Part shown: in pieces, positions 2,671 through 20,278 of the stretch | Position numbering within the stretch: position 1 is the first letter of the stretch | How the letters are laid out: every line of letters starts with the position of its first letter | Assembly (NCBI GenBank): GCA_026415975.1 | Contig: JAOAFZ010000001.1 | Span: 186,001 to 250,000, forward strand | Direction: 5' to 3' | DNA length: 64,000 nt | Source: Patescibacteria group bacterium | GTDB taxonomy: Bacteria > Patescibacteriota > Microgenomatia > UBA1406 > GWC2-37-13 | The notes under the pieces: generated by a model | The model's input: only the letters and a program-made list of their open reading frames with translations | The model's database searches: none | What the model was told of the DNA's origin: nothing | Made by a program: the position numbers and the translations under genes

Positions 2671-3738
2671 TTACGCTGCCTGCTCCGGTTCTGCTGCTGC
2701 CGGAGCATCTTCAACGGCTGCTGCATCAGATCCGGACTCCGGTTCAGGAGTTTCTTGGACTTGCGCTACTTCTTCCTTTGAACCCTCTACCGGAACCTGG
2801 ATAATATCAATTTCGTATCCTACCAGCCGGGATGCAAGGTTTACATTAACCCCGCCTTTTCCAATGGCAAGCGGAGCCTGTGATTCATCTACCGTAACCT
2901 TTGCCAGCTTTGCGACGGTGTCTATCTCGATGCCGAGTATTTTTGCCGGCGATAGTGCGCTCGTCAGGTAGGTTTTAGTGTCTTTACTCCACGGAATAAT
3001 GTCAATTTTTTCAGCTCCACCTAGCTCATCGGTGACTGTTTGTACACGCACACCTTTTTGCCCTACGCAGGCGCCAACCGGGTCAACACCACCCTGGGAA
3101 CTGTGAACGGCGATCTTAGCACGTTCTCCCGGCTCACGCACGACGTCTTTGATCTCCACGGTCCCGGTACCGATCTCCGGGACCTCCCGCTTGAACAGTT
3201 CTTTCAACAGATTAACATCAGAGCGGGAAAGAACTATCCGGGAATGTCCGAATTTATCCTCGACGATGTCTTTCAGAAGTGCTACAATCTGACTGTTTAC
3301 ACGGTATGTCTCGTTTCGGATCTGCTCCTCCCGTGGCAGTACTGCCTCCGACTTTCCGATGTCTACGTGTACATTATACGCATCTGTCCGGATTATTCTT
3401 CCACGGATTATACTTCCGACCTGATCACGAAACTGAGAGATGATATTCTTCTTTTCCGCTTCCCGTATCTTCTGGAGAATTACCTGACGCGCAGTCTGTG
3501 CAGCAATGCGACCGAAACCGGGCGGAGTGATGTCTTTTCCTGCTCTGATAACTTTCGTTTCACCGTTATCCTTACTAACTACGACAGCAACATCTTCATC
3601 CCAGATATCTGCGTGTTCTTTCTTAAACGCAGCAAGGACGGCAGCTTCGATAGAAGCCAGAACGTCCTGTGGAGAGATCCCCCGCTCGGTAGCAACCTGG
3701 TTTAGCGCGAGGGCAAACTCGCTTTTTACAATTCCCAT
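2671..3738 (-). CDS. nusA: Transcription termination/antitermination factor NusA
   Basis: RNA polymerase-associated factor acting in pausing, termination and antitermination. The 355-aa product has the N-terminal RNAP-binding domain (about 1-120), an S1 domain (IIRGRIIRTDAYNVHVDIG, about 127-145), and two KH domains (VGQKGVRVQTV and IGKGGVNVNLA GxxG loops), then an acidic Ala/Glu/Pro-rich tail. I chose ATG 3738 because the product then begins MGIVKSEF and a -10 box lies 6 nt upstream. A TTG at 3756 would add six residues but would lie upstream of the predicted transcription start. Upstream is rplY rather than rimP. Confidence 0.95.
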   Translation of the reverse strand: MGIVKSEFALALNQVATERGISPQDVLASIEAAVLAAFKKEHADIWDEDVAVVVSKDNGETKVIRAGKDITPPGFGRIAAQTARQVILQKIREAEKKNIISQFRDQVGSIIRGRIIRTDAYNVHVDIGKSEAVLPREEQIRNETYRVNSQIVALLKDIVEDKFGHSRIVLSRSDVNLLKELFKREVPEIGTGTVEIKDVVREPGERAKIAVHSSQGGVDPVGACVGQKGVRVQTVTDELGGAEKIDIIPWSKDTKTYLTSALSPAKILGIEIDTVAKLAKVTVDESQAPLAIGKGGVNVNLASRLVGYEIDIIQVPVEGSKEEVAQVQETPEPESGSDAAAVEDAPAAAEPEQAA

Positions 3739-3744
3739 GGGTAC

Positions 3745-3772
3745 ATTGTAGCACAAACACAGGGAAAATCAA
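3745..3772 (-). promoter_or_regulatory. Leaderless promoter of nusA
   Basis: On the minus strand, TTGATT (3772-3767), a 16-nt spacer and TACAAT (3750-3745), preceded by an extended -10 TGC. Six bases separate the -10 box from ATG 3738, so transcription would start at or next to the A of the start codon. Inferred from spacing only. Confidence 0.6.
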
Positions 3773-3811
3773 CGAAGGACGGGCATTGGTGAAGGCAGGT
3801 TTTTAACCTGG

Positions 3812-4495
3812 TTACTCTTTGCTCTCAGGTTGTCCGGCGTCTATGGATTCCGGAGCTTCCTCAACCTCTGATGTGCCGTCTTCTGTTTCGGGGATGGTAG
3901 AAGCGGTATCAGGATCTGTTGATTCTTCTTTGTGTTCGGTAACGGAAACTATCACCTGCTCTGGATCATCTTTTATAACATAATCTGCTGCGACCGGAAT
4001 ATCACCAACGGTAACGGACTGTCCGATTTCGGTAAGAGACTCAAGGTTGATTGTGATAGCAGAAGGAATATTTGTCGGAAGCGCTTCAATAGTGATTTTA
4101 TCCTTCTGATACAAAATTACTGCGCCCTCTTTTTCTGCTGGTGATGCCCCAATGAATTCCAGCGGAACAACCGTCTCGATTTTTTGTTTCAGGTTGATTT
4201 TCCTGAAATCCACATGCAACAGCCAGCCCTTGACCGGATTACTCTGGGTTTCTCCGATGAGCGTAGGAATTTCTTTCCCGTCAACTTTCAGGTAAACAAC
4301 ACCGGTTTGACCTGCCTGACTGTAGATTTTCCGGAAATCCCGTTCGTCTATTGCTATCGGGAGTGATGGGAAACCCTTTCCAAATACGTTGGCTGGAATT
4401 GTACCACCTTTCCGGAGTCTTTTTACACCTTTCCCGAGTATGCTGCGCCTATGCGCTTCTAGGTAAAGTTTTTCGGTGGAATTCGGGTTCGTCAT
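3812..4495 (-). CDS. rplY: 50S ribosomal protein L25 (Ctc/TL5 type)
   Basis: 5S rRNA-binding ribosomal protein of the long Ctc/TL5 form (227 aa). The N-terminal L25 domain (about 10-100) carries GKGVKRLRKGGTIPANVFGK and a conserved LLHVDFRKI block; the C-terminal beta domain (about 100-190) is typical of TL5, followed by an acidic, probably disordered tail. The gene starts 5 nt after the DUF4012 stop codon and ends 73 nt before nusA, which has its own promoter. It probably shares the transcript of the DUF4012 gene. Confidence 0.95.
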   Translation of the reverse strand: MTNPNSTEKLYLEAHRRSILGKGVKRLRKGGTIPANVFGKGFPSLPIAIDERDFRKIYSQAGQTGVVYLKVDGKEIPTLIGETQSNPVKGWLLHVDFRKINLKQKIETVVPLEFIGASPAEKEGAVILYQKDKITIEALPTNIPSAITINLESLTEIGQSVTVGDIPVAADYVIKDDPEQVIVSVTEHKEESTDPDTASTIPETEDGTSEVEEAPESIDAGQPESKE

Positions 4496-4500
4496 TTGGA

Positions 4501-6828
4501 TTATTCAAGAAAAAATTCTAGGAAAAATATTTTGTCTGCTGACAGAGAGGTATTATAGATAATCCTGTTGCCTTTTACAATAGGAGAAAAGTTTTTATTT
4601 ACCACATAAAAATTATCAGGCTTCTCAATCTCTAGAGCAAAGTCGGAATTAGGGGATCCGATCTGCTTTTGCAATATCAGTTGATAAATTCCGTTTCCAC
4701 GAACCGCCTTTTCACCATATTCATAGTCGATAACGATTTCACCTTGTTGCTGTGGTGCTACAGTGCTCAAAAAACCGATTCTGGTAATTTCTCCGGATTG
4801 CAAATCATAGGAATCAAGCTTTTTCCCCATATTGGTAATTCCTGTAATCCGGACGTTTTTTGGCAGAAGCAATTGAAAGTAATTCCGGTAGGGACCTCCA
4901 GGGAAAACCTGCGGTTCAGATTCATTTGCATAAAGTATCCGGAGCCGGTGTCGTATTGTTCCGTCGGGGAGGATGGTTACCTTGAATTCGTGACGCTTAG
5001 TAATAAAAAAATTCGCCTTATTCACTCCCAGATTCGCGTCGTAGGGGAAAAGATAGTCAACGATACAATTCGGATTTGAGGATATTGTGCAAACCGGTGC
5101 GATAGTTCTTCCCGCCCAGTAGTTTGCATCTATAAGAGATTGAAGTTCTCTGTTGGAAAAAGACATCACGATCTGTTTTTCATTGAGTGACTTAATTAGT
5201 GCAGAGAACAGTTTATCCGGACTTGCTTCCGTAATATCAATCAACATCTGGTTCATTACAGCCCCAAGAAATGTTTTTTTTTGACGGGATCCCGGAAAAA
5301 AGTTTTTTTCGGCATACAACTGCGCTTTTATATAAAAATTATCCGATGTAACCCGTTCCCGAAAGTCGGGGATATACAGCTCATCCATTGCGGCAAGAAT
5401 ATTCTGGACAGCACTGGTAGTTATCAGAATGACACCATCAAAATCTCGAATGTTCATTGTGCGGTCGAGAAAAAATTTTGCCTGGGAGGCATTTTCCGTG
5501 AAATCCGGTGAAAATGCAGAATCACGGAGAAACCAGTGCGGCTGGTCGAGGTATTCCCGGATTGGTGCAGGCGGTCGAACATGGGCCTGAAGCTGACCAT
5601 CCGCATCGTAAACGTCGTAAACGTCCAAATTCATAAGGGTATAGTCTTTTACCTTGACAACGGCAAACGAACCGATAAACCCGCCGCCCGGGCGGAGTTC
5701 CATGTTGTTTGCAAAGAGTATCAGATACTTCCGTTCTGCATTTTCCCCAAGTATCCAACCGAAGTATGGAAAAAACGGCTGTACCGTTTTTATTGCATCG
5801 GATATACTGTCCACGGTGAGTCGCAAGCCATCGAAACGGCTATCAAACCGAGGTATCTTAGATTTCAGAATGCTGAGATCATTAGCGGTCTTCCGTATCG
5901 TGGAAAAAAGTGATTCAGCGATTTGCCCGATATACTCGACGTCAGAGGAAGTCTTTCCGGTTTGAAGTATAAGATCCCGGAGTGTTTCCCCCCGTTGCTC
6001 CAGAAATGCGGCATTTTTCACCACATCGATGGTTGTCCGGTTCAGCAGGAACGCATCGTCAGGGAGGATTGCGAGCGAAAAGAGCGAATAGGTTGGGCGG
6101 ACAATGGCATATAGCCATTGTCCGGAATTAATCCCGAAACTTGCCAGTCTTGCATACTCTACCGCAGTCGCAGTATCCCGTTGCCACAATGAAACTGCAG
6201 CACGATACGTCAGGTAGGTTGCTCCGGCAAGTACCGGAAGGAAAGCCAGATGCAACAATCCGACTACTGCCAGAATAGCCAGTACCGCATTCCTTGGTTT
6301 GGCAAGAGATGCTATCCTTTTCCTGATTGCGATACGTTTCCGGTCAAATCTTTTTCGTGAATGGAGTTGGTGCTTTATAGCATGTTGTTGAGGGGTAAAA
6401 TGTTCTATCGGGAGAAAGACCTCTGAACTATGGGTAAAACTAAACCAGAGTATCTTCTCAATATCTTCCGGGTAATGCTCGGCAGTAGTCGTTAGTGAAA
6501 TAATTTTTACCGATCCGCCCTGGTAGTTTTTGACCAGGGCTCGCATGGCATCTGCACGTGCAGGTAGGTTAAGATAAATAAACACCAGCTTGCGGTGTGA
6601 CTTTGAGAATGCCTGCTTAAATACATGTTCGCTGGCATCAATGGTGAAAACTATGGAGTAGGATTGTAGATCAGCGGGCAGATCAGTCCGGCGGTCTACT
6701 ATGGAATCATACAGGGAGAGTCTTGATTGAAGTAAATCAGCAAGCGGGACGTTTTCAGGAGCGCATACCAGAATACGGGAAGCGGAAACTTCGGTCTGGG
6801 TAGTCAATCTGATCGGTTGCCGGTTCAT
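4501..6828 (-). CDS. DUF4012 domain protein with cytoplasmic N-terminal domain and membrane anchor
   Basis: A 775-aa protein with three parts. Residues 1-145 look like a Rossmann- or receiver-like alpha/beta domain (SRILVCAPE, KLVFIYLNLPA, VKIISLTTT strands). A basic stretch follows (155-175), then a transmembrane region at about 180-210. The large C-terminal region holds the DUF4012 hallmark, here KYLILFANNMELRPGGGFIG near 366-385, followed by conserved WFLRDSAFSPDF. DUF4012 proteins are common in CPR bacteria and their function is unknown; the topology suggests an inside N-terminal domain and an extracellular C-terminal domain. The start overlaps a bidirectional promoter shared with the nucleotidyltransferase at 6850. 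A second DUF4012 gene begins at 63080 beside polysaccharide genes. Confidence 0.85.
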   Translation of the reverse strand: MNRQPIRLTTQTEVSASRILVCAPENVPLADLLQSRLSLYDSIVDRRTDLPADLQSYSIVFTIDASEHVFKQAFSKSHRKLVFIYLNLPARADAMRALVKNYQGGSVKIISLTTTAEHYPEDIEKILWFSFTHSSEVFLPIEHFTPQQHAIKHQLHSRKRFDRKRIAIRKRIASLAKPRNAVLAILAVVGLLHLAFLPVLAGATYLTYRAAVSLWQRDTATAVEYARLASFGINSGQWLYAIVRPTYSLFSLAILPDDAFLLNRTTIDVVKNAAFLEQRGETLRDLILQTGKTSSDVEYIGQIAESLFSTIRKTANDLSILKSKIPRFDSRFDGLRLTVDSISDAIKTVQPFFPYFGWILGENAERKYLILFANNMELRPGGGFIGSFAVVKVKDYTLMNLDVYDVYDADGQLQAHVRPPAPIREYLDQPHWFLRDSAFSPDFTENASQAKFFLDRTMNIRDFDGVILITTSAVQNILAAMDELYIPDFRERVTSDNFYIKAQLYAEKNFFPGSRQKKTFLGAVMNQMLIDITEASPDKLFSALIKSLNEKQIVMSFSNRELQSLIDANYWAGRTIAPVCTISSNPNCIVDYLFPYDANLGVNKANFFITKRHEFKVTILPDGTIRHRLRILYANESEPQVFPGGPYRNYFQLLLPKNVRITGITNMGKKLDSYDLQSGEITRIGFLSTVAPQQQGEIVIDYEYGEKAVRGNGIYQLILQKQIGSPNSDFALEIEKPDNFYVVNKNFSPIVKGNRIIYNTSLSADKIFFLEFFLE

Positions 6829-8170: not shown

Positions 8171-9313
8171 ATGAACCAGAAGACCGTGTTGTTGGTTGGT
8201 GCAGTGCTATATCTTGCTGCAGCGGCAGGATCGTATGCCTTCTTTTCGATGTCCGCCCCGATGCAACCGGCAGAAAAGCCTGTTGCAGATGCCAGCCCAG
8301 ACAGGAAACAGGAAGATGCCGCTCCTAAAACGGAAGAGTGTCCCCTCAATGGGCAGCTCTACTCGAAAGCACAGCGCGCCGCCTGGGAAAAACGTCGCCC
8401 GCTTGGTATATCCATTGAAAACAGCGTGGACGCAAGACCGCAGTCCGGCCTGAGCTCTGCAGATATTGTGTATGAGGCTGTTGCAGAGGGTGGGATAACG
8501 AGGTTTCTTGGAATCTACTATTGTGACAGCGCTGAAACAGTTGGTCCTGTGCGTTCTGCCCGCATCTATTTTATACGGATCCTTCAGGGGTATGGGGTCT
8601 ACCCGCTTTATGCTCATGTCGGTGGGGCAAATACTCCCGGTCCGGCAGATGCCTTAGGCGAGATACGTGAACTCGGATGGGGTAACTATAATGATTTAAA
8701 TCAGTTTTCAGTGCCGTTTCCGAACTTCTGGCGTGACTATGAAAGACTTCCCGGTGTGGCTACTGAGCACACGATGTACACGGACACCGCAAAACTCTGG
8801 TCATTTGCTGCGAAGAACCGCAACCTTACCAACGTGGATGAGGAAGGTACTTCCTGGGATGAGTCCTTTACTTCATGGAAGTTTGCCGATGATGCCAAGA
8901 CCAAAGGCAATACCGTCAGCATTTCGTATGAGTTCTGGACAGCTTCTCGCTCGACAATGGGTGTTGACTGGGCATATGACCCGAAGACGAATAGCTATCT
9001 TCGGTCAAATGGGGGAAAGCCACACCTTGACAAGAATACCGAAGAGCAGCTTAGGGTAAAAAATGTCGTTGTGATGGAAGTGGATGAATCTCCGGCAAAT
9101 GATGGCTATCCGGGCGGCCATCTTCTGTATGACCTTATTGGCTCTGGGAAAGCCTACATATTCCAGAACGGCAACGCAATCGAGGGTAAGTGGAGTAAAG
9201 ACGATGAAGAAAGCCGTATCATCTTTACGGACGCGAAGGGTGCTGAGATCTCGATTGTACGCGGTAAGGTATGGGTATCTGTTGTACCGACCGGAGCGGA
9301 AGTCGAGTTCTGA
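8171..9313 (+). CDS. DUF3048 domain protein, exported and membrane-anchored
   Basis: A 380-aa protein with an N-terminal signal or anchor (VLLVGAVLYLAAAAGSYAFF, about 5-24), a low-complexity linker, and the two-part DUF3048 domain (about 57-375; the YerB lipoprotein family of Bacillus). Typical blocks are PLGISIENSVDARPQSGL, VGPVRSARIYFI and a GHLLYDLIGSGKAYIFQNG segment near the end. No lipobox cysteine is seen in the signal. Function in this family is unknown; the domain is expected outside the membrane. It is first in a run with the winged-helix gene (10-nt gap) and secDF. Confidence 0.88.
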   Translation: MNQKTVLLVGAVLYLAAAAGSYAFFSMSAPMQPAEKPVADASPDRKQEDAAPKTEECPLNGQLYSKAQRAAWEKRRPLGISIENSVDARPQSGLSSADIVYEAVAEGGITRFLGIYYCDSAETVGPVRSARIYFIRILQGYGVYPLYAHVGGANTPGPADALGEIRELGWGNYNDLNQFSVPFPNFWRDYERLPGVATEHTMYTDTAKLWSFAAKNRNLTNVDEEGTSWDESFTSWKFADDAKTKGNTVSISYEFWTASRSTMGVDWAYDPKTNSYLRSNGGKPHLDKNTEEQLRVKNVVVMEVDESPANDGYPGGHLLYDLIGSGKAYIFQNGNAIEGKWSKDDEESRIIFTDAKGAEISIVRGKVWVSVVPTGAEVEF

Positions 9314-9323
9314 TCGTTAAAAT

Positions 9324-9899
9324 ATGTTGCACCATATTATACCGTCTAAGACGCGGCGGAAAATTCTGGAATTGTTTTTCAAAAACACGAAAGAAAATTA
9401 TTACCTCCGGCGTATTGTTCGTGAGGTAAACGAAGAAGTAAATGCGGTTAAACGTGAGCTGGATATTCTTACCGAAGCGAAAGCGTTAATTCGTGAAAAG
9501 CGCCTAAATAAAGTTTTTTATTCACTGAATAAAAACTGGATATATTTTGACGAATTTCTTCGTATATTTGCTAAATCTGGGTCGGTGTATGTGCAGATTC
9601 ATAAGAATCTTTCTCGGATAGGAAAACTTAAGTATATTGCTATGGCAAAAAGTCTGGTAAAAGACGGTATGGAAAAGAAGGAAGATGTTGCGATCCTCTT
9701 TGTGGGAGTCGTTGTGATTCCTGAAATTGAACTGGTAATGGCTGAGGTTGAAAAGGCAATGGGTCGTGAGATAAACTACACCGTTATGACAGAAGAAGAA
9801 TTTGCATTCCGGAAAAAGAGCAATGACCCATTTATCTGGCGGTTTTTGCGCCAGCCGAAGATTATGCTTTTGGGACAGGAGGAAGAGCTTGTAAAATGA
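9324..9899 (+). CDS. Winged-helix regulator with a degenerate nucleotidyltransferase-like domain
   Basis: A 191-aa protein. Residues 7-75 form an ArsR-like winged helix (KTRRKILELFF, NYYLRRIVREV, VKRELDILTEAKALI, then the wing KVFYSLNKN). Residues 90-187 resemble the minimal nucleotidyltransferase domain found in archaeal and bacterial regulators, with the conserved tail GREINYTVMTEEEF and PFIWRFLRQPKIMLLG. The catalytic G-S...D-x-D motif is not recognisable (KKEDVAILFVG stands where SDIDLLVIG-like sequence is expected), so catalysis is doubtful. It overlaps secD by 4 nt (ATGA) and is probably co-translated with it. The regulatory target is unknown. Confidence 0.75.
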   Translation: MLHHIIPSKTRRKILELFFKNTKENYYLRRIVREVNEEVNAVKRELDILTEAKALIREKRLNKVFYSLNKNWIYFDEFLRIFAKSGSVYVQIHKNLSRIGKLKYIAMAKSLVKDGMEKKEDVAILFVGVVVIPEIELVMAEVEKAMGREINYTVMTEEEFAFRKKSNDPFIWRFLRQPKIMLLGQEEELVK

Positions 9900-11263
9900 A
9901 AATATTTACCCGGGGACTCGTAGCAATTGCTGTCTTTCTCCTTTTGTGGGTAAATTTACCGGTTTCTATTCCCTATAATTTCACCATTGGTGTCCGTACA
10001 TTCACTGGAGAGATCACACGCCCTACCTTTGTTCAAACAATAGACGGTCGTCAGCTGGTGCGCGATTTTTCATTGAAGCTAGGTCTTGATTTACAGGGAG
10101 GGAGCAGCCTGATCTTTCAGGCGGATACATCTGGGCTCGCGAAAGCTGATGTAAACGATGCCCTTGATTCAGCGCGCGATATAATCGAACGGAGGGTAAA
10201 CATGTTTGGCGTTTCGGAACCTTCGATACGCACTATCCGCTCGGGAGAATCCTACCGTATTGCGGTAGATCTTCCCGGAGTTGCCGATCCTGTTGAGGCA
10301 ATATCACTCATTGGATCTACTGCTCAGTTAACCTTTCAGGAAATTGCCACTCCTGAGGCAACTATCGCCACTGATGAGGCAAATCTGGCGACAGCATCCG
10401 CGCGTATGCCGACCTTCATCGAAACAGGTCTTTCTGGAAAAGATGTGAAAAAAGCCAGTGTAACGTTCAATTCGGAAACAGGAGAGCCCGAGGTACTACT
10501 TGAATTTAAGGAGGAAGGAAGAAAAAAGTTCGCCGAGATCAGTAAACGTAACGTCGGTCGGCAGGTGGCAATTCTACTGGATGATGAAGTTCTCTCTGCT
10601 CCGGTTGTCCAGACACCTATCCTGGACGGAAATGCGGTAATCAGCGGAAACTTTACTACGGATAGTGCCAAGCAGTTTGCTATTGCAATCAACTCAGGGG
10701 CCCTCCCGGTACCGGTTAAGTTACTAGAACGGAGGAATGTCGGTCCAACGCTGGGCGCAGTTGAGGTTAGGCAAAGTCTGATTGCAGGAATAGCCGGGTT
10801 GCTTATGGTTATGCTTTTTATGGTAGCGTACTATGGACGTCTTGGACTGATTGCCTGTGTAGCCCTTCTGTTTTATGGTCTTATTACTCTGGCAATCTTT
10901 CGGGCCATCCCCATCGTGCTGACCTTGCCGGGAATTGCAGGCTTTATTCTTTCCATCGGTATGGCGGTAGACTCTAATATACTCATTTTTGAGCGAATTA
11001 AGGAAGAAATACGAAAAGGAAGGGACTTTCGGCAGGCAATACGACTCGGTTTCGGGCGTGCTATGGATGCAATTAAGGACGCAAACGTCACAACCCTGTT
11101 GGTAGCTTTTATCCTGTTTAACCCCTTGAACTGGGATTTTCTCCCCCAGTTTGGACTCGTGCGCGGATTTGCTTTGACATTGGCAATTGGCGTGGTTACC
11201 AGTCTTTTTACGGGAATTATCATTACCCGTAAACTGATCCAGTTTTTTTACCGGAGCTCATGA
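9896..11263 (+). CDS. secD: Protein translocase subunit SecD
   Basis: Inner-membrane RND-type component of the Sec machinery that uses the proton motive force to assist export. The 455-aa protein has one N-terminal membrane helix (about 5-24), the periplasmic P1 base with LGLDLQGGSSLIFQAD (about 62-77), a second periplasmic region, and five C-terminal helices starting near residue 300, including the conserved AVDSNILIFERIKEE. It overlaps the upstream regulator and downstream secF by 4 nt each. Confidence 0.96.
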   Translation: MKIFTRGLVAIAVFLLLWVNLPVSIPYNFTIGVRTFTGEITRPTFVQTIDGRQLVRDFSLKLGLDLQGGSSLIFQADTSGLAKADVNDALDSARDIIERRVNMFGVSEPSIRTIRSGESYRIAVDLPGVADPVEAISLIGSTAQLTFQEIATPEATIATDEANLATASARMPTFIETGLSGKDVKKASVTFNSETGEPEVLLEFKEEGRKKFAEISKRNVGRQVAILLDDEVLSAPVVQTPILDGNAVISGNFTTDSAKQFAIAINSGALPVPVKLLERRNVGPTLGAVEVRQSLIAGIAGLLMVMLFMVAYYGRLGLIACVALLFYGLITLAIFRAIPIVLTLPGIAGFILSIGMAVDSNILIFERIKEEIRKGRDFRQAIRLGFGRAMDAIKDANVTTLLVAFILFNPLNWDFLPQFGLVRGFALTLAIGVVTSLFTGIIITRKLIQFFYRSS

Positions 11264-12126
11264 TTCCATTTCTTAAGTATTCCAAACTGTATGCAGCAAT
11301 CTCACTTATTGCTCTGGCAATAGGAACGTACTCGGTGATTACGTTCGGATTCAGATATTCTGTTGAGTTTATCGGTGGTTCCGATCTCCGGTATAAGGCT
11401 AATCCTCCGATTTCCGCTGAGTTAGTGCGGTCTGTTTTGGAAAAACAGGAAATAGAGGGGGCTACTGTATCGGTCAGCAATGGAATAGTGGACATTCGCA
11501 CTCCACCTCTTTCTGAAATTCAGGAACGTGATCTTCGCAACGCACTCTCGAAGGAAGCAAACACCAAAATAGAAGTTCTGAGATCGGAAACAGTTGGGCC
11601 GACAATGAGCCAGGATGCTGTTCGTAAAACCGTGATTGCAAGCGGGCTGGGAGTTCTCGGTATCCTGTTGTATGTTGCGTATGCATTTCGAAATTTTACG
11701 TTTGCAATAGCCGCAGTAATTGCCCTATTCCACGATGTCCTTATTCTAATAGGCAGTTATTCGCTCCTTTCGCGGTTTTTCGGGGCAGAACTGGATACAC
11801 TTTTTGTAACTGCTACTTTAACTACGATGTCTTTTTCAGTTCATGACACCATCGTCATGTACGATCAGTTGCGGTTTTATATCCGGAAACATGGTACTCG
11901 CGAGGTTGGTATTTTCGCAAATATTGCAATCACAGAGACGATAGTGCGTTCACTAAACAACTCACTTACAATTATATTTATGTTACTTGCCCTTGCACTA
12001 CTTGGTGGAGAAACGATTCGCTTCTTTGCGATCTCACTGCTAATTGGGACCATAGTCGGCACGTACTCATCGCCGTTTGTCTCAATGCCGATTGCTGTCT
12101 GGCTTATTCAGAGGAAGCATTCTTAG
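11260..12126 (+). CDS. secF: Protein translocase subunit SecF
   Basis: Partner of SecD in the SecDF complex. The 288-aa protein has a first membrane helix, the GxDxxGG-related FIGGSDLRYK motif, a short periplasmic loop, and a C-terminal bundle with the family motifs SVHDTIVMYDQLR (about 189-201) and the ETIVRSLNNSLTII segment (about 227-240). It overlaps secD by 4 nt, and its last 23 nt overlap the convergent cca gene tail to tail, leaving no room for a separate terminator. Confidence 0.96.
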   Translation: MIPFLKYSKLYAAISLIALAIGTYSVITFGFRYSVEFIGGSDLRYKANPPISAELVRSVLEKQEIEGATVSVSNGIVDIRTPPLSEIQERDLRNALSKEANTKIEVLRSETVGPTMSQDAVRKTVIASGLGVLGILLYVAYAFRNFTFAIAAVIALFHDVLILIGSYSLLSRFFGAELDTLFVTATLTTMSFSVHDTIVMYDQLRFYIRKHGTREVGIFANIAITETIVRSLNNSLTIIFMLLALALLGGETIRFFAISLLIGTIVGTYSSPFVSMPIAVWLIQRKHS

Positions 12127-13477
12127 AGCTCTGGTCGGCTTTCACTTCACGAAGACGCTTCAGAAGCGTTTCTCGGTCATTTGGCAACCCGGCCTCGATA
12201 ACCTCGGTGAAAATCTTATCAAGGATCTCACCAATCTTTCGTGAGGGTCTTAAAGAGAATATCTCCATCACGTCGTGGCCATTTATTTTCAGGTCTTTCA
12301 CGGAAAACGGCTCGTGCTGAACTTCTTCCAGTCGCTGTTTGAAAAGTTCGTACCGCCAGCTGGTAGGTTTTGCTCCGGAACCGATACGATCTCCGGTACG
12401 TAAGTCGAGCATATCCTGGAGGTTTTCCTTGCCCACGTTCCGAATAAAGCGACGAAGTGCCTTATCCGTCTGAAGTTCGGAGACGGTGAACTGGTGATGC
12501 TCCACCAGCTTGACGAGCTTTTCTTTTTCGGCATTTGACAACTTGAATCGCTCGGCAATCGCCTCTGCCATGTGTTTCCCGACGACTTCATGGTTATAAA
12601 ACGTTACCAGACCGCTCCGGGGGTTCTTTCGATACGTAGGCACTTTCCCGATGTCGTGAATCAGTGCGGCAAAGCGGACTATTGCCTTTTCTGAAGGACA
12701 GAACCGGAGCGACTCAACAAGATGGGTTCCTACGTCGTATTTATGGTGGCGCATCGGGCTCTTCTGATCGATCGCGAATGCGGCTTCAACTTCCGGAAGA
12801 ATATACCTCAGTAATCCTAGCTCACGGAGCAAGAGTACACCGCCTGCAGGATCGCGGGAGACGAGTATTCTGAAAAATTCGTCCCGGATCCGCTCCCAGG
12901 ATATATTCAATATCCGGTCGGCATTGCGGATAAGCGACTCTCGTGTCTCTGCTTCTATCTCGAAACTGAGTACGGTGGCGAATCGTACTGCACGAAGAAG
13001 CCTGAGAGCATCTTCTGCAAAACGGGTATCCGGATTTCCGACTGCCCGAATTACTTTCCGTTCGAGGTCTTTGCAACCAGAAAACGGATCTACCAGGACT
13101 GAGCCGTCATAGGCAATGGCGTTGATCGTAAAGTCACGGCGTGCCAGGTCTTCCTCGATCGAATCTGTCCACTCCACAGAATCGGGACGGCGGGAGTCAG
13201 TATAGTCGCTTTCCTTGCGGAAGGTGGTGACTTCAAACACGTGCTTTGTTCCGTTTGTCTCCACGGGGATTCCCACCGTTCCAAATGTATTGTTGTAAAA
13301 ACCATCAGGAAACAGCTCTAGAATCTGCTCAGGCCGGGCGCTCACGGCAAAATCCCAGTCTTCAGTCTCACCAAGCAACAGTAGATTCCGCACGGCTCCA
13401 CCCACAAGGTAGATGCGGTACCCGGCCTTCTGAAATGTATGCATGAAAGCAAGTACATGATCGGGAAGAGAAAGCAT
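12104..13477 (-). CDS. cca: CCA tRNA nucleotidyltransferase (class II) with HD domain
   Basis: Builds or repairs the 3' CCA end of tRNA. The 457-aa protein has the polymerase-beta-like head (LVGGAVRNLLLL near 24-35; the EDWDFAV metal motif near 38-44; RRDFTINAIAY near 114-124), the tRNA-binding neck, and an HD phosphohydrolase domain (RFAALIHDIGK near 265-275). The GGxVRD motif ends in N rather than D. The class II fold cannot by itself exclude a poly(A) polymerase role. The start sits 5 nt after an extended -10 TATAAT. Its 3' end overlaps secF. Confidence 0.92.
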   Translation of the reverse strand: MLSLPDHVLAFMHTFQKAGYRIYLVGGAVRNLLLLGETEDWDFAVSARPEQILELFPDGFYNNTFGTVGIPVETNGTKHVFEVTTFRKESDYTDSRRPDSVEWTDSIEEDLARRDFTINAIAYDGSVLVDPFSGCKDLERKVIRAVGNPDTRFAEDALRLLRAVRFATVLSFEIEAETRESLIRNADRILNISWERIRDEFFRILVSRDPAGGVLLLRELGLLRYILPEVEAAFAIDQKSPMRHHKYDVGTHLVESLRFCPSEKAIVRFAALIHDIGKVPTYRKNPRSGLVTFYNHEVVGKHMAEAIAERFKLSNAEKEKLVKLVEHHQFTVSELQTDKALRRFIRNVGKENLQDMLDLRTGDRIGSGAKPTSWRYELFKQRLEEVQHEPFSVKDLKINGHDVMEIFSLRPSRKIGEILDKIFTEVIEAGLPNDRETLLKRLREVKADQSSKNASSE

Positions 13478-13482
13478 ACGCT

Positions 13483-13491
13483 ATTATAGCA
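13483..13491 (-). promoter_or_regulatory. Extended -10 promoter of cca (leaderless)
   Basis: TGCTATAAT on the minus strand; the -10 box ends 5 nt before ATG 13477. The extended TG motif could compensate for the lack of a clear -35 element. Confidence 0.55.
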
Positions 13492-13531
13492 TTAGCCCGT
13501 TATAATTGAATATTTAAGAAGTTTGGGAACT

Positions 13532-13940
13532 TTACCAGAGCCGCCTTATCTTCTCGACTACCGGCTTAAAGGCTGCGGTTTTAATACGTAAAACCGCTTT
13601 GTCGTACGGCATCCACCCGGCATCATAGAACTCTGACTTCTGAAAGGTAAAGGGAACCATCTCTTCCATATGTACTAGATACCAGATATCCAGGTGTGTT
13701 TGGTATCCAGTCGTCTGCTTTCTTATGATGCCCCATATAGATAAGCCTTCTCCCGGGTACAACGGGTACGAAAAAAGCGCAGAGATGGTGCTCCGGTGCA
13801 CCGGCATCACGGTAGAGAAAGTCATTCGATTCTACATACTTGCGGATACGCGACAGTGTAATCGTATCTACATGGGATAACCGGGCCAGAGCATCCAGTT
13901 CTGCCAAAATCGGGTCTTTATCTGCCGGGGAAAAAGTCAT
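13532..13940 (-). pseudogene. Nudix hydrolase pseudogene (Nudix box deleted, frame shifted)
   Basis: Two overlapping frames give the two ends of one Nudix protein. The first (from ATG 13940) reads through HHLCAFFVPVVPGRR and YMGHHKKADDWIP, the strands just before the Nudix box. The second resumes at GYQTHLDIWYLVHMEEM and runs to EFYDAGWMPYDKAV and a stop at 13532, the usual C-terminal half. The segment that should contain the catalytic GX5EX7REUXEEXGU helix is missing, and the frames do not match across the junction near 13700-13715. The start still overlaps the nfo stop as ATGA, so the gene was once coupled to nfo. A catalytically useful product is unlikely. Confidence 0.8.
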
Positions 13941-14812
13941 AGGGATGGATTGTGATTTATAAATGACCGGGCTATAGTAATATTTCGAGCATCCGGGCCA
14001 TTTCCGTCGAAGCCTGGGGTTTCAAGGATAGCGGGGATGGTTTGCAGGCGAGGATGATTCAGGAGGTTGAGAAAGACGCTCTTTGGTACCAGACCCTCGC
14101 CCAGGTTTTCGTGACGATCACGGAACGAGCCGAAGGGATCGCGACTATCGTTCAGATGAAACAGGGCGACTGAATTCCAGCCGATCAGCGAATCCACGGT
14201 TGCCATGAACGCTTGAAATGACTCAGCTGTTGAAAGATCGTAGCCGGCTGCGTGGAGGTGACAGGTATCCAAACATACTCTTACGCGCGGGCTGTTTATG
14301 TCCGAAAGAATCTGCCCCAGTTCTTCCAGAGTTCTTCCGATTTTCCGCGTCGCAACATTCTCGATGATAAGGATACTCTCTTCCGGAGTTTCCGCGAGTA
14401 TTTCCCGGATATTTCCCAGAAGTATCGGGTACTTTTCGTGCATGAAGAGGCCATCTGTAGCGTATCCTTTATCCTTATAGGAGCCAAGGTGGACAACACT
14501 GCCGGACACTCCCATTCGCGGTTGTAGCCGGAGCTCTGCAATGAGAGCCGTTTTCGAGACTGCTCCGATCCGTTCGCTGTCTGCCAGATTAATCAGGTAA
14601 CTGGCATGAAAAAATACCGGCCCCACACCAAGTTCTACCGCCCGTTTCCTGAAAGCTGTCGCGGAAACATCGCTAACGGTTGCCGGTTTCCAGATGCGGG
14701 GTGAAGTAGAGAAGATCTGGAGAGCGTTCCCCCCCATTGCCACAATCCTCTCAAGGGCGGATTCATAACCGCCTGAAACCGAAAGATGGGCACCGATTTT
14801 CAGCTCAGTCAT
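13937..14812 (-). CDS. nfo: Deoxyribonuclease IV (endonuclease IV, AP endonuclease)
   Basis: Zinc-dependent AP endonuclease of base-excision repair with a TIM-barrel fold (291 aa). Characteristic blocks are IGAHLSVSGG (6-15), FFHASYLINLA, VVHLGSY, ILIIENVA, VCLDTCHLHAAGYDL and FHLNDSRDPFGS, with the RHENLGEG motif near 237-244 supplying the expected His, Glu and Asp ligands. The gene is intact, although both neighbours that overlap it by ATGA junctions are decayed. It probably depends on the promoter upstream of the serine-hydrolase pseudogene. Confidence 0.95.
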   Translation of the reverse strand: MTELKIGAHLSVSGGYESALERIVAMGGNALQIFSTSPRIWKPATVSDVSATAFRKRAVELGVGPVFFHASYLINLADSERIGAVSKTALIAELRLQPRMGVSGSVVHLGSYKDKGYATDGLFMHEKYPILLGNIREILAETPEESILIIENVATRKIGRTLEELGQILSDINSPRVRVCLDTCHLHAAGYDLSTAESFQAFMATVDSLIGWNSVALFHLNDSRDPFGSFRDRHENLGEGLVPKSVFLNLLNHPRLQTIPAILETPGFDGNGPDARNITIARSFINHNPSL

Positions 14813-15395
14813 AATGATTGATTTTCCGACTCATATTCGGGCCGATTTGCAATCCAGTAACGGTGTTGCAACGCAATCCTAGTCTCGACCCCTACTACCG
14901 TCAGAGGTAACAATACACCCCCCCAGTGGTCAGTATACTTCCCTTCCTAATCGGTGAACCCACGCTTTTGCTCCGGGGGTTTAACCGCGACAAAAGTTTC
15001 TCGATCCGGCAACGGGGCACCGTCCCAGTGTGCTGTCGTACCGTTGCGGGATACCCCGCCGGCTAGATGCCGGATTGTCATCATTTTCCCGGCAAGAAGC
15101 TCTGGCAGGCAATACTGGACATACTGGTCCAGATGCAGTTTTTTTCCTGCACGAGTTGCAGCACAACGATCGCCGTAAATATTTTTGAGATTGATGCGAT
15201 ACGACAAGTTATATCAAGCGTGAAGCGCTCACCACTGATTTGATTTGCATGTCTTATTCCGGTTGTAATGGTTGTTTCCCGGTTATGAACTATACCAATG
15301 GAAATACCGGGAATTCGATCATAAAAGCGCTGGCAATCTGCTGATTGGGTAATAACCCGCGAAAAAGTGGAAAAATCCGGATGGATACTAAGCAT
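14809..15395 (-). pseudogene. Serine hydrolase (class C beta-lactamase/DD-peptidase-like) pseudogene
   Basis: From ATG 15395 the frame reads IPGISIGIVHNRETTI and CRIASISKIFTAIV, carrying the SxxK nucleophile motif (SISK). At a run of seven A near 15135 the frame slips; the next frame continues KKLHLDQYVQYCLPELLAGK and TIRHLAGGVSR, as expected for this family. It reaches an in-frame TAG at 14947-14949. Beyond that, the same frame stays readable for 45 codons (EGKYTDHWGGVLLPL onward) to a TGA at 14809 that overlaps the nfo ATG. The YxN and HxG/KTG regions are missing. So it has a frameshift, a premature stop and an internal deletion. The promoter is retained. A single sequencing error could explain the slip but not the rest. 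Confidence 0.8.
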
Positions 15396-15401
15396 TAGTA
15401 T

Positions 15402-15407
15402 ATTGTA
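15402..15407 (-). promoter_or_regulatory. -10 box of the serine hydrolase pseudogene/nfo unit
   Basis: TACAAT ends 6 nt before ATG 15395, the same leaderless spacing as the intact genes. It is the only candidate promoter seen for nfo. No clear -35 element. Confidence 0.45.
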
Positions 15408-15507
15408 CCGTATGATCATCACGGTAATATCGATTCTCATTTGATACGTACTGCAGTAGGATGTAAAACGCAAACGGCTTACGTGAAGTGCTGATTTATT
15501 ATCCCTC

Positions 15508-15536
15508 TTGACAGTGTTTAGCAGAGTTGATATATT
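15508..15536 (+). promoter_or_regulatory. Promoter of the hrcA-grpE-dnaK-dnaJ operon
   Basis: A perfect TTGACA (15508-15513), 17-nt spacer and TATATT (15531-15536). The start near 15543 gives a leader of about 24 nt. It is the closest match to the sigma-70 consensus in the window and overlaps the CIRCE-like operator. Confidence 0.75.
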
Positions 15537-15544
15537 TGTGCTAA
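15518..15544 (+). promoter_or_regulatory. CIRCE-like HrcA operator
   Basis: TTAGCA and TGCTAA form a perfect 6-bp inverted repeat laid out as 9-9-9 (TTAGCAGAG, 9 nt, TTGTGCTAA), the geometry of the CIRCE element TTAGCACTC-N9-GAGTGCTAA; the three inner bases of each arm diverge. It covers the spacer, the -10 box and the predicted start site, so HrcA binding would block transcription. Position before hrcA supports autoregulation. Confidence 0.75.
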
Positions 15545-15566
15545 TTACCAGTGTGGAATATACCGT

Positions 15567-16310
15567 ATGAATGATCTAACGCAGCGTCAAATAGACATTC
15601 TCCGTGCAGTTATCTTGGAATATAATGAGACGGGTGAGGCGGTTGGTTCAGAGGTGCTCGAAAAAAAATACAAGCTGGGAGTTTCCCCTGCAACTATCCG
15701 TAACGAAATGGCGGAGTTATCCAAAAAAGGATACCTGACCAAGACACATTTCTCCTCCGGTCGTATTCCATCAGCAAAAGGCTACCGGTTTTATATTCAA
15801 AACCTGATGAAGAAGCGCGAGCTCTCAACGTTCGATGAAGTGGCATACAAGAATAGTATCTGGGATGAGCGTAACAACCGGCACCGCCTTATGACTCATG
15901 CTGCCAAGGCACTTGCCCAGCGCACTGGACTTCTCTCGCTGGTAGCTACAAATTACGGTGATGTTTATTATGCCGGAGTGGCAAATTTGCTGGATAAAAA
16001 CGAGTTCCTAAATCTTGATGTTTCAAAAAACCTCTTTACGCTACTTGACGAGACGTTTTTTTGGGAAAGTATATTAAAGCGTTTCGTTACTGTAGAAGAG
16101 GATGTAATGTACATTTTGGGTGAAGAAGACTTTCATAATCCTGTTTTTGAACCCTGTGCCAGCGTTTTTGCCTCGTTTGAGGGTGGTGATGAAATTCGCG
16201 GTATTGTTGGAGTCGTAGGTCCGAAACGAATGTACTACGAGGTTATAACTCCGCAGGTAGAGCATCTTTCGAATTTGATTGAAGATATTATGCGGGAAAG
16301 TACGAAATAA
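15567..16310 (+). CDS. hrcA: Heat-inducible transcription repressor HrcA (short form)
   Basis: Repressor of class I heat-shock genes that binds CIRCE. Residues 1-75 are the winged helix (LTQRQIDILRAVI, SPATIRNEMAELSKKGYL, SSGRIPSAKGYRFY); the rest is the GAF-like dimerisation domain ending with the conserved IVGVVGPKRMYY motif. At 247 aa it is well below the roughly 340 aa of typical HrcA, so part of the central region or inserted domain is reduced. It is the first gene of the chaperone operon, with the CIRCE-like site just upstream. Confidence 0.9.
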   Translation: MNDLTQRQIDILRAVILEYNETGEAVGSEVLEKKYKLGVSPATIRNEMAELSKKGYLTKTHFSSGRIPSAKGYRFYIQNLMKKRELSTFDEVAYKNSIWDERNNRHRLMTHAAKALAQRTGLLSLVATNYGDVYYAGVANLLDKNEFLNLDVSKNLFTLLDETFFWESILKRFVTVEEDVMYILGEEDFHNPVFEPCASVFASFEGGDEIRGIVGVVGPKRMYYEVITPQVEHLSNLIEDIMRESTK

Positions 16311-16331
16311 AGTTGCTATTTTAATTCTTAT

Positions 16332-16835
16332 ATGAAAGATTCAAGCAGCAAACGAAAACAAAAAGACGAATCCCCAAAAAAAACGGAGGCTGCTCCGGCG
16401 CATACTGGTGATGAACTTGCGAGTGCACTTGAACAAGGAGCAGAATACAAGGATAAATATCTGCGTGCCATGGCCGATTACCAGAATCTTGAGCGGCGGG
16501 TTCAGGATGAACGCCAGGAACTGATACCGATGATTCGAAGACAGATCATCAAAGAGTTTCTTCCGGTACTTGCCAATCTGGATACGGCGGAAAAGTTCAT
16601 CACCGATCCCGGCCTGAAGATGATCAAGGATCAGTTCATGCAGACTTTGGGAAATCTTGGTGTCACGGAAATCGATGTTGTTGGCAAGCCCTTTGACCCG
16701 CACACTGCGGAAGCAATCGAAGCAGTACCTGGAAACGAAGATGGTATTGTTGTCGAAGTACTACGCAAAGGATATCAGATAAATGGCAAAGTAATCCAGC
16801 ACGCACAGGTAAAAGTTAGCAAAAAATCGTCGTAA
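16332..16835 (+). CDS. grpE: Nucleotide exchange factor GrpE
   Basis: Exchanges ADP for ATP on DnaK. The 167-aa protein has a charged, disordered N-terminus (1-30), a coiled-coil dimerisation helix with KDKYLRAMADYQNLERR (about 39-56), and the C-terminal beta domain with GKPFDPHTAEAI and VEVLRKGYQINGKVIQHAQV. It lies 21 nt after hrcA and 29 nt before dnaK. Confidence 0.96.
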   Translation: MKDSSSKRKQKDESPKKTEAAPAHTGDELASALEQGAEYKDKYLRAMADYQNLERRVQDERQELIPMIRRQIIKEFLPVLANLDTAEKFITDPGLKMIKDQFMQTLGNLGVTEIDVVGKPFDPHTAEAIEAVPGNEDGIVVEVLRKGYQINGKVIQHAQVKVSKKSS

Positions 16836-16864
16836 AACATTATTAACATTTCTAATTAAACCCA

Positions 16865-18781
16865 ATGGCAAAAATCATCGGTATTGATCTCGGAACAACC
16901 AACTCTGCTGTTGCCGTCATGGAGGGCGGCAAGCCGAAAATTATCCATTCGCAGGAAGGACGAAACGTTATCCCGTCCGTCGTGGATCCCGTGAAAAACG
17001 TAGTCGGCGATGTGGCCAAGCGGCAGATGGTCATCAACCCTAAACAGACCATCTTCTCCGCAAAGCGACTCATGGGTCGTCGCTTCAGTGACGAATCGGT
17101 GCAGCGCGATATTAAGCTTCTCCCTTACACCGTCAAAGCTGGCCGTGACGATATGGCGGTGATCGAGGTGAATGGAAAGGAGTATACTCCGCAGGAGATT
17201 TCTGCGAAGATTCTTCAAAAGATCAAGGCAGATGCGGAAGCCTATCTTGGCGAGAAAGTGGAAAAAGCGGTTATCACAGTGCCGGCTTACTTCGACGATG
17301 CTCAACGCCAGGCAACCAAGCAGGCGGGCGAAATCGCTGGGCTTGAAGTGGTCCGCATCATCAACGAACCAACTGCAGCTGCTCTGGCATATGGTTTGGA
17401 CAAATCGCATGCGCACACTATTGCGGTTTACGATCTTGGCGGAGGTACGTTTGACATTACGATTCTTGAACTCGGCGACGGTGTATTCCAGGTGAAGGCC
17501 ACAAACGGTGATACGCACCTCGGTGGAGATGATTTTGATCAGTTGATTATCGATCACATTGCCAGTGAATTCCAGAAAGAGAACGGCGTGGATCTTCGGA
17601 AGGATACCCAGGCGCTCCAGCGTCTTAAGGACGTCGCGGAAAAGGCAAAGATCGAATTATCCAGCTCGATGGAGGCGGAAATTAACCTGCCGTTCATCAC
17701 GGTAAAAGACAACGTGCCGCAGCATCTTGTCATGAAGCTCTCTCGCTCCAAGCTGGAATCGCTGGTGGATGATCTGATCAAGAAGACATTCCAGCCTGTC
17801 AAGGAAGCCCTTAAAGATGCAAAGCTCACCAAGGATGAGATTGATGAAGTGGTCTTAGTTGGTGGAATGACACGCATGCCAAAGATCATTGAGTCAGTGA
17901 AGGAGTTCTTCGGCAAGGAACCGAACCGCTCGGTAAACCCCGACGAGGTTGTTGCTATCGGTGCTGCTGTACAGGCTGGGGTTCTTACTGGTGAAACAAA
18001 AGATGTGGTGCTCTTAGATGTGACGCCGCTTACCCTGGGTGTAGAAACACTCGGTGGTGTGGCAACCCCACTTATTCCCCGCAACACTACAATCCCGGCC
18101 ACCAAGTCAGAAGTCTTCTCGACGGCCGCCGACAATCAGACCCAGGTCGAGATCCATATTGTCCAGGGAGAGCGTCCGATGGCGGCCGATAATAAGTCGC
18201 TGGGCCGCTTTATACTGGACGGCATTCCGCCTGCGCCGCGGGGCGTGCCGCAAATTGAGGTTTCATTCGATATCGATGCGAACGGTATTCTTACCGTAAC
18301 CGCAAAGGACAAGGCCACCGGCAAGGAACAGTCCATCAAGATCACCGGTTCTACTGGTCTCACCAAAGAAGAGATTGAGCGCATGAAGGAGGAGGCAGAA
18401 AAGAATGCCGAAGCCGATAAAGCGCTACGTGAGAAGGTCGAGGCCAAAAATAAGGCGGATCACATGATCTTTGTCGCCGAGAAATCTCTCAAGGATGCGG
18501 GTGATAAAGCTCCGGCCGACGTTAAGGCAGAGGTACAAGGAAAGATTGAAGAACTTAAGAAGATTATCGAGTCAGGTACGGCGCAGGAAATTGATGCCAA
18601 GACTAGCGAGCTATCCTCTGCGATCCAGAAGCTCGGTCCTGCGATCCAAGAAAACCAAAAGAGTGAAGCGCAGGATGCCTCTAGCTCAAACGGGACAACG
18701 GACGGAGCTGGTGAAAATACGGAGGTCGGCGGCTCTAAAAACACGGATAAAGACGTTGAGGAGGGCGAAGTAGTTAGCTAA
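16865..18781 (+). CDS. dnaK: Molecular chaperone DnaK (Hsp70)
   Basis: ATP-dependent Hsp70. The 638-aa protein begins with [18 protein letters not shown], has [13 protein letters not shown] near 191, [10 protein letters not shown] near 335, and a substrate-binding domain with [14 protein letters not shown] near 386; the C-terminal lid ends in a disordered tail with EEGEVVS. Codon use is richer in C-ending codons than in the neighbouring genes, consistent with high expression. Substrate capture is helped by DnaJ, encoded 6 nt downstream. Confidence 0.98.
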
Positions 18782-18787
18782 CGTCCT

Positions 18788-19660
18788 ATGGCCGACTATT
18801 ACGAACTGCTCGGGTTGAGCAAAAATGCCTCAGTCGCGGATATCAAGGCAGCATACCGGAAAAAAGCGCTCGAGTGGCACCCGGACCGGAATAAGTCCCC
18901 CGATGCCGAAAAGACCTTTAAAGAGATCAACAGAGCGTATGAGGTCCTTTCCGACCCCAAAAAGAGGCAGATCTATGACCAGGTTGGCCATGCTGCATAT
19001 GAAAAGTTTGGAGGTCGAGCGGCCGGCGGATACCCCGGCGGGGGGGCAGCTGCAGGACAGGGGCCATTCGGGGGGTACACTTATACTGGTCGGCCGGAGG
19101 ACTTCGGCTTCGATTTCGATGTCAACTTTAACGATCCCTTCGAGATCTTCGAGCAGTTTTTCGGCGGCCAGTCGCCATTTGGCGGGCGGGCTCGCACCAG
19201 ACGGCCGCTATACCAGATGAAGCTGACATTTGATGAGGCGGTAAAGGGGGTGGAAAAGGAGACCGTTATAGGGGGGAAAACCCGTAAAATCAAGATTCCT
19301 GCCGGTGTCGATTCCGGTACCACGATCCGCTTCGAAGACTTTGATCTGACGGTTGAGGTGGCTCCACACAAGTACTTCAAGCGCGAGGGTCAGAACGTGA
19401 TCTATGAGCAGGAAATCTCGATTCCGGATGCGGTTCTGGGGACGACCATTGAAGTTCCTACGATTGATGGCAGTGTGAAGCTTAAGGTTCGTCCCGGGAC
19501 GGCCAGTGGTTCCGTGGTGCGCCTGAAAGATCGTGGAATTCCCTATCCGCGGTCGAACAGGAGAGGGGATCAGTATATTGTCTTTAAGATCAAAATACCT
19601 GAGAACCTCTCCGGTAAAGGAAAAAAACTTATGGAAGAGTTGCGAAAGGAGCTAAGCTGA
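18788..19660 (+). CDS. dnaJ: DnaJ-type co-chaperone without zinc finger (CbpA-like)
   Basis: A 290-aa Hsp40. The J domain (1-68) carries the HPD motif ([20 protein letters not shown]). A Gly/Phe-rich linker (about 75-110) and the two beta-sandwich peptide-binding domains follow. The four CxxCxGxG zinc-binding repeats of DnaJ type I are absent, making it a type II (CbpA-like) protein. It lies directly after dnaK (6 nt) in the HrcA-controlled operon and would stimulate the ATPase of DnaK. No type I DnaJ is seen in the window. Confidence 0.93.
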
Positions 19661-19685
19661 AAAGAACGCTCGTTTTTGGTACAAT
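19657..19685 (+). promoter_or_regulatory. Promoter of efp
   Basis: CTGAAA (19657-19662), 17 nt, then extended -10 TGGTACAAT (-10 at 19680-19685). The predicted start near 19692 leaves a leader of about 26 nt to ATG 19718. The -35 element overlaps the dnaJ stop codon. Confidence 0.5.
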
Positions 19686-19717
19686 AAGCTTTCCATAGAT
19701 TCTGTTTATCACGTCAC

Positions 19718-20278
19718 ATGAAAATCAATGCCGGTAATATCAAAAAAGGTGAGTTCGTTCTGTATCAGGATAAGCCTCATCAGGTGCTGAAAGCCGAGTT
19801 CTATTCTCCCGGCAAGGGATCTGCTCTTATGCGCACCCGGCTCAAGAATGTCGAATCGGGTAAACAGGTTGACTATACCTTCAAATCAAACGAAATTGTG
19901 GAAACTATCGAAGTGGTATCCCTCGAAATGCAGTATCTGTATAAGGATGCTGAAAATATGTACGCTATGGACAAAGACTATGAACAATATACGATTCCGC
20001 TCACAGTAGCCGGGGATGCGGTAAACTATTTAAAAGAAGGAGAAACAATCTTCGTATATATGTATGCCGAGCGTCCGCTTGCAATCAGGCCGCCGGCGAC
20101 TGTTCGCCTTACCGTTATTGAAACGGAAGATGCAGTAAAGGGTGATACTGTGTCTGGTGCACGCAAACCGGCAATAGTTGAAACCGGTATTACCGTCATG
20201 GTTCCTCTCTTTGTAAAACAGGGAGAAACCATAGTTGTCAATCCGGAAACCGGCGAGTACACAGAACGCGCCAATTGA
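19718..20278 (+). CDS. efp: Elongation factor P
   Basis: Rescues ribosomes stalled at polyproline stretches. The 186-aa product has the KOW-like domain I with the loop YSPGKGSALMRTRLKN (about 28-43), whose Lys is the usual modification site, and two OB domains; the EF-P signature appears as KPAIVETGITVMVPLFVKQG. No modification enzyme (EpmA, EarP or YmfI type) is seen in the window. A client could be the polyproline-rich tail of the DHH protein at 1-1140; that is inference. Confidence 0.96.
   Translation: MKINAGNIKKGEFVLYQDKPHQVLKAEFYSPGKGSALMRTRLKNVESGKQVDYTFKSNEIVETIEVVSLEMQYLYKDAENMYAMDKDYEQYTIPLTVAGDAVNYLKEGETIFVYMYAERPLAIRPPATVRLTVIETEDAVKGDTVSGARKPAIVETGITVMVPLFVKQGETIVVNPETGEYTERAN

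Follow-up and report, generated by a model that had tools for sequence, protein, structure and literature searches.

The locus studied here raises the question of how an intact gene for deoxyribonuclease IV (Endonuclease IV, nfo) came to lie between two decayed genes, each joined to it by a stop-start overlap, and of how such a gene could still be expressed. According to the original prediction, a serine hydrolase gene, nfo and a Nudix gene once formed a single unit, of which only the middle gene survives, with the promoter kept because nfo needs it. The locus was found in a window of 64,000 nucleotides (the whole stretch of DNA that was analysed) from a Patescibacteria group bacterium, the genome of which is a 1.31-Mb draft of 10 contigs. 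The minus strand carries cca (12104-13477), what is left of a Nudix gene (13532-13940), nfo (13937-14812) and the remains of a PF00144 serine hydrolase gene (14809-15395), with hrcA (15567-16310) divergent from them. The features are as follows.

12104-13477, minus strand: cca, tRNA nucleotidyltransferase, the next gene in the conserved neighbourhood
13483-13488, minus strand: TATAAT, 5 nt before the cca ATG, a leaderless-type start
13532-13700, minus strand: C-part of the Nudix remnant (THLDIWYLV...KIRRLW, then a stop), in the other frame, with ~150 nt including the Nudix box gone at the junction
13701-13940, minus strand: N-part of the Nudix remnant, up to HHKKADDWIP, its ATG overlapping the nfo TGA
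13937-14812, minus strand: nfo, deoxyribonuclease IV (Endo IV), intact, 291 aa, from TIGR00587, PF01261 and the 4hno alignment
14809-14811, minus strand: TGA that runs into the nfo ATG and is in frame with the middle and 3' hydrolase pieces
14920-14994, minus strand: probable hydrolase piece from beyond an internal loss of ~210 aa, interrupted by an in-frame stop (...FTD, stop, EGKYTDHWG); weak match
15004-15138, minus strand: next part of the hydrolase, other frame (LHLDQYVQ...TIRHL...SRNGTTAHWDGAPLPD), by homology
15141-15395, minus strand: N-part of the hydrolase (PF00144) with SISK; ATG 15395-15393, frame stop 15083-15081
15402-15407, minus strand: -10-like TACAAT, separated by 6 nt from the hydrolase ATG; candidate promoter for a leaderless start of the unit
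15518-15544, plus strand (noted region 15508-15544): CIRCE-like repeat TTAGCA-N15-TGCTAA overlapping the hrcA -10
15567-16310, plus strand: hrcA, divergent neighbour, conserved in relatives

The surviving gene was as intact as had been predicted. Its open frame scored 196.3 bits against TIGR00587 (cut-off 129.65), which places it in Endonuclease IV, and 119.3 bits against PF01261 (threshold 31.1; E 2.9e-34). It aligns with the solved Endo IV structure 4hno over residues 4-276, including the stretches FFHASY, VVHLG, IENV, LDTCHLH, LFHLND, DRHE and ILETPG, which presumably carry the metal-ligand His, Asp and Glu positions. A second PF01261 protein of the source genome (L002) looked by eye more like a barrel of the sugar-isomerase type than like another Nfo, and a PF03372 protein matched the xth models only below cut-off. 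Within the family, no nfo match was found in 10 of 37 genomes (the source genome counted), some of which are incomplete drafts, and nfo was partial at contig ends in two more (G005 and G021); nfo is thus dispensable in the family to some degree.

For the comparison, 57 relatives were searched, among which there was no second genome of the window's genus; nfo identity to the best of them was 53-56%. Relatives bearing names are largely Candidatus Roizmanbacteria, several of them identical in sequence to genomes of the family. The synteny set, drawn from L003-L094 by an nfo match with hrcA or cca in reach, comprised 33 distinct loci, the window included and copies merged. Three family loci with neither gene within 1.5 kb (L018, L025 and L027), one with cca far off (L087) and named records in which neither gene was close to nfo, most of them from other lineages to judge by their titles, were left out. 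hrcA was in reach in 30 of the 33 loci, the window's counted, which gives 29 relative loci for the hrcA-nfo gap. Two genomes of the family (G010 and G006) kept hrcA, the Nudix gene and cca without nfo (L041 in G006, L036 in G010), and a TANNNT box was then seen by eye ~9 nt before the Nudix ATG. In another locus (L051), a Cas12a/Cpf1 gene (994-4929, minus strand; TIGR04330, 584 bits) lies directly upstream of nfo and divergent to it.

On the other side of the gap, hrcA has a promoter-like pair (TTGACA-17-TATATT). The repeat TTAGCA-N-TGCTAA, which looks like a variant of the classic HrcA operator, was present in the 110 nt before hrcA at 28 of 30 loci (a raw count). The predicted HrcA of the window has 247 aa, and 246 aa in most of the relatives listed; a typical HrcA has roughly 340 aa. 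An Rfam search of 9000-20000 gave nothing at gathering scores, and a sequence scan detected five promoter-like sites (shuffle mean 3.1) and five terminator-like sites (shuffle mean 1.9).

Downstream, the nfo TGA overlaps by 4 nt (13940-13937) the ATG of a 105-aa open frame. This frame and the one that follows match intact Nudix genes colinearly in two frames, and the intact genes of relatives lie at the same place, which shows descent from an nfo-linked Nudix gene. Matches to the N-part were found in 20 other genomes of the 57 (21 with the source genome; best 39% identity, E 4e-13), in a genome-wide search; not all of them lie at the nfo locus. The consensus of the Nudix box is GX5EX7REUXEEXGU; this box, the mark of PF00293, is missing from the remnant, and neither of its open frames had a Pfam match at E up to 1. 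The spacing between WIP and HxDxW is 50-52 residues in seven intact relatives and, as measured by eye, 4 nt in the window. This indicates a net deletion of ~150 nt, not a multiple of three, that contained the Nudix box. Both parts are otherwise open in their own frames, and a single event, which removed the whole box and shifted the frame of an ancestral gene downstream of nfo, accounts for the damage seen. Three Nudix matches occur elsewhere in the source genome. A different Nudix gene (PF00293, 4.8e-19) was observed in L006 (2363-2812, minus strand); it points the opposite way and fills the place between nfo and cca from which the usual one is missing.

The arrangement in which hrcA diverges from nfo, followed by the Nudix gene and cca, recurs in relatives, mostly Roizmanbacteria, which makes the Nudix gene ancestral. 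The 33 loci have an intact Nudix gene in 12, a damaged one in three (the window, L051 and L053) and none in 18, a gene missing from the locus being not always missing from the genome. The class "intact" was based on the whole sequence in seven of the 12, on open-frame length in four, and on match span alone in L084, where the gene lies ~1.2 kb beyond nfo. Both other lesions differ from that of the window: in L051 the frame shifts inside a C run, perhaps through a sequencing error, and in L053 the 3' half is gone as far as cca. On a tree built with nfo, hrcA and cca, in which damaged copies were counted as present and several nodes are weak (window plus L053, support 0.04), the Nudix gene was lost 11 times both by Fitch and by no-regain counting. 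L048 and L049, which are grouped with support 1.00, differ in having the gene. Comparison of the loci thus shows nfo and the Nudix gene to be an ancestral pair, the second member of which has been lost repeatedly. Among the 14 relatives that have the Nudix gene, intact or damaged, the -4 overlap between the two genes was found in five and other distances in seven, and the Nudix start was not located in two; since five relatives share it, the downstream overlap is more than chance.

The upstream remnant seems to have a different history. Its N-part matched PF00144 (1.8e-9, 37.7 bits, cut-off 27) over profile positions 13-71 of 329, and SISK, a match to the SxxK motif, is present in this frame. 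A complete PF00144 serine hydrolase domain also includes a YxN region and a C-terminal half; here the KYSNLGY region and ~210 residues have no counterpart. The open frames of homologs measure 447-504 aa; in the window the homology changes frame at about 15141 and continues to about 15004. Beyond this point, the match at 14920-14994 was weak (E 0.15, with two short stretches searched); of 1000 shuffles, the score was reached by 5 with L047, 0 with L132, 94 with L046, 142 with L134 and 724 with L133. For the last ~25 residues before nfo no alignment to intact hydrolases was obtained. The TGA of these pieces overlaps the nfo ATG by 4 nt (14812-14809), so both predicted overlaps are present. ATGA is common at nfo starts (22 of 32, the window's included), and a TGA is therefore expected there; only the one-in-three match of frame is informative, which makes the upstream overlap the weaker evidence.

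Both flanks of nfo are thus homologous to real genes, as had been predicted. Pure chance open frames were considered as a source of the remnants and ruled out by the PF00144 match, the homologs and the colinear Nudix matches. An alternative genetic code behind the hydrolase stops would still leave the frameshift and the long deletions. The genome is a draft, and a relative's frameshift falls inside a C run (L051), where such errors are common, which would suit lesions created by chimeric or low-coverage assembly or by binning. Yet a net deletion of ~150 nt, a probable one of ~210 codons, a frameshift and several stops at distinct places are not single-base errors, the hrcA-nfo-cca neighbourhood is correctly ordered and its neighbours are intact; such an artefact is hardly credible. 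A further possibility is that the shortened pieces, the 105-aa N-part of the Nudix protein or a 104-aa N-part of the hydrolase, are still translated and kept for a new role. Both open frames have kept their starts and the Nudix piece its overlap with nfo, but the former has lost its catalytic box in the Nudix case, little of the hydrolase fold is left and the hydrolase frame ends 268 nt before nfo, which makes this very unlikely. The hydrolase carries more lesions than the Nudix gene and probably died earlier, an order that rests on lesion counts in two different genes.

A homolog of the hydrolase N-part was found in three of the 57 relatives and five of 379 genomes of the phylum (the source genome counted in each), thus in two others of the 57. 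The PF00144 model matched in six of the 57, four above cut-off with the source genome included; in the three other genomes above cut-off none was near nfo, and there was no other match in the source genome. Homologs elsewhere in the family do not share a contig with nfo. For the 29 loci of relatives that have hrcA next to nfo, a tblastn scan with one full hydrolase (L047) and the window piece as queries (L046 being used in alignments and shuffles) detected no such gene in the hrcA-nfo gap.

Other genes do occupy this gap. A same-strand gene precedes nfo in seven relatives (L020, L021, L022, L052, L065, L069 and L084). Pfam placed the seven gap genes on which it was run in families other than PF00144. 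The same-strand genes include MutT-like Nudix genes in L065, L069 and L084 (PF00293) and, by eye, in L020, L022 and L052, "MutT-like" being a loose term, as L065 matches MutT models below their cut-offs. They also include alpha/beta hydrolases in L021 and L052 (Pfam); the gap genes of L020 and L022 and the first of L052 were named by eye and not by Pfam. In L055 and L088 the gap holds a PF13354 gene on the other strand (Pfam). The seven upstream junctions with nfo were -4 in four relatives, -8 in two and +2 in one. A coupled gene before nfo thus recurs while its identity changes between relatives, so that upstream coupling is plausible as anatomy, not as ancestry.

These observations bear directly on whether hydrolase, nfo and Nudix gene were one ancestral, translationally coupled operon, which is now losing both flanks and retains its promoter for the sake of nfo. 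The two overlaps in the window, and the 4-nt and 8-nt junctions of relatives, fit such an operon; the empty record for PF00144 before nfo, the other families found there and the 3' end of the hydrolase that cannot be aligned speak against it, and we consider it unlikely. Of the predicted three-gene unit, the nfo-Nudix pair stands and the hydrolase does not; a full-length hydrolase-nfo-Nudix operon was not found in the 29 loci. As an ancestral member of the operon the hydrolase was rejected. It is better read as putative lineage-specific cargo placed before nfo, as other genes were in the seven relatives.

The position of -10-like boxes followed the gene order. With nfo starts chosen as the ATG nearest the match start, and loci classed by the analyst after inspection, a TANNNT box lay 5-8 nt before the ATG in 18 of 21 loci where nfo comes first (shuffle mean 3.7, maximum 11, 2000 rounds). 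Behind a same-strand gene it was found in one of eight loci, the window included (the one being L069), and in none of three loci with opposite-strand or unclear gap content. By chance alone, about one start in six would carry so loose a pattern; the contrast between first and behind-gene nfo gave a Fisher p of 0.0005, and 0.0014 without the window. The first upstream gene had the box in all six relatives tested and in the window (the L020 start was left out), and the second cargo gene of L052 had none. Before the cca ATG, TANNNT was present at 5-8 nt in 31 of 32 loci.

The same tendency was seen in 340 kb of the source genome (contig C2, 1-340000; L142-L158), where open frames were started at the first ATG, so that some starts are wrong. 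Among 148 first-position open frames, which have no same-strand neighbour close upstream, TANNNT peaked at a gap of 6 nt (26 frames; gaps of 13-25 averaged ~4), and 119 frames behind a same-strand neighbour showed a weaker rise (29 matches at gaps 5-8). Shine-Dalgarno-like motifs preceded only 19 of 267 frames, although the 16S 3' end keeps CACCTCC. Leaderless starts of units, marked by a putative -10 box ~6 nt before the ATG, thus seem to be usual in these bacteria.

In the window this box is the TACAAT before the hydrolase ATG, as for a leaderless unit; a sigma-70 scan found no -35/-10 pair there and no minus-strand pair before nfo or the hydrolase. The promoter proposed in the original prediction is thus present as a candidate box, while the reason given, that nfo needs it, is unproven, nfo matches being missing from some genomes of the family as noted above. 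The nfo gene itself has no -10 box, nor, by eye, a Shine-Dalgarno-like motif, and a predicted 9-codon frame (MSRKINHYD) overlaps its start. The frame opened by the hydrolase ATG stops at 15083-15081, far outside the range of a coupled pair, in which a translated upstream frame ends no more than about 20 nt from the start of the second gene. No terminator-like site was found on the minus strand between 15395 and 14812, so that read-through transcription would be possible.

It is quite probable, from sequence comparison, that the window holds a family neighbourhood of hrcA divergent from optional cargo, nfo, an optional Nudix gene and cca, caught after two separate gene deaths. The serine hydrolase would have entered the hrcA-nfo gap in the window lineage, occupying the promoter-proximal place, and then decayed by a shift of frame, by stop codons and, probably, by a large internal deletion. 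Leaderless transcripts would start the units and many inner genes would be reached by stop-start overlap. As a -10-like box survives at the hydrolase start and is missing at nfo, transcription of nfo probably still begins ahead of the dead hydrolase. With the ribosome path to it cut, nfo would have to initiate alone, weakly, or be on its way out.

A bolder reading, which we hold as possible and rather doubtful, extends this to a rule. Protein synthesis in this Roizmanbacteria-type family would begin largely on leaderless messages. Whichever gene faces hrcA would own the -10 box ~6 nt before its ATG and inner genes would depend on overlaps. The window's nfo would then be stranded with no leaderless start, Shine-Dalgarno motif or coupled frame, and be either translated by an unrecognised internal route or nearly silent. 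The death of one gene could thereby silence an intact neighbour and trigger loss of the unit. The decay itself is an ordinary process; the noteworthy part, which appears worth testing, is the apparent loss of start signals before an intact gene.

The locus can serve as a small model of gene loss in reduced genomes, the same Nudix gene having been lost ~11 times, in which the gap beside hrcA takes varying cargo and the promoter position belongs to whatever gene comes first. Should this group generally rely on leaderless starts and overlaps, intact genes would be at risk whenever the gene ahead of them in first place breaks, and gene starts should be annotated by the -10 box rather than by Shine-Dalgarno motifs.

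Compared with known Endo IV proteins (TIGR00587; PDB 4hno and 1qtw), the window's nfo is predicted to be alike in its full-length AP endonuclease domain and to stand apart only by the genes around it and by the start signals that it lacks; a search of open-licence PMC papers gave nothing linking Endonuclease IV with Roizmanbacteria. A TANNNT -10-type box ~12 bp upstream of the start codon is described as a mark of leaderless genes (PMC3160421; PMC12340547), reported in Actinobacteria, Deinococcus-Thermus, Aquificae, Chloroflexi and Firmicutes (PMC3160421). Among the titles and abstract openings listed in open-licence PMC, none was on leaderless gene starts in Microgenomates, Patescibacteria, Candidate Phyla Radiation or Saccharibacteria; one paper deals with YchF and leaderless mRNA generally, and another mentions the term just in the title of a reference. 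The present case differs from those reported in PMC3160421 in concerning a family of Roizmanbacteria type, in which the box goes with whichever gene comes first in the unit. Inner-gene overlaps of -4 and -8 are shared with described termination-reinitiation at ATGA overlaps (PMC10666635; PMC6728339). As reported for Haloferax volcanii and E. coli, reinitiation is nearly gone beyond ~20-40 nt (PMC10666635); in the window, by contrast with such coupling, the upstream partner is dead, so that hydrolase-nfo coupling cannot work as described for ATGA overlaps. Pseudogene loads in CPR bacteria are already known, with 4.9% and 9.4% pseudogenes given for two Parcubacteria genomes (PMC11188291). The window likewise presents dying genes in a small Patescibacteria genome, whereas here a single locus was followed across 33 related loci, in which the same gene has been lost repeatedly.
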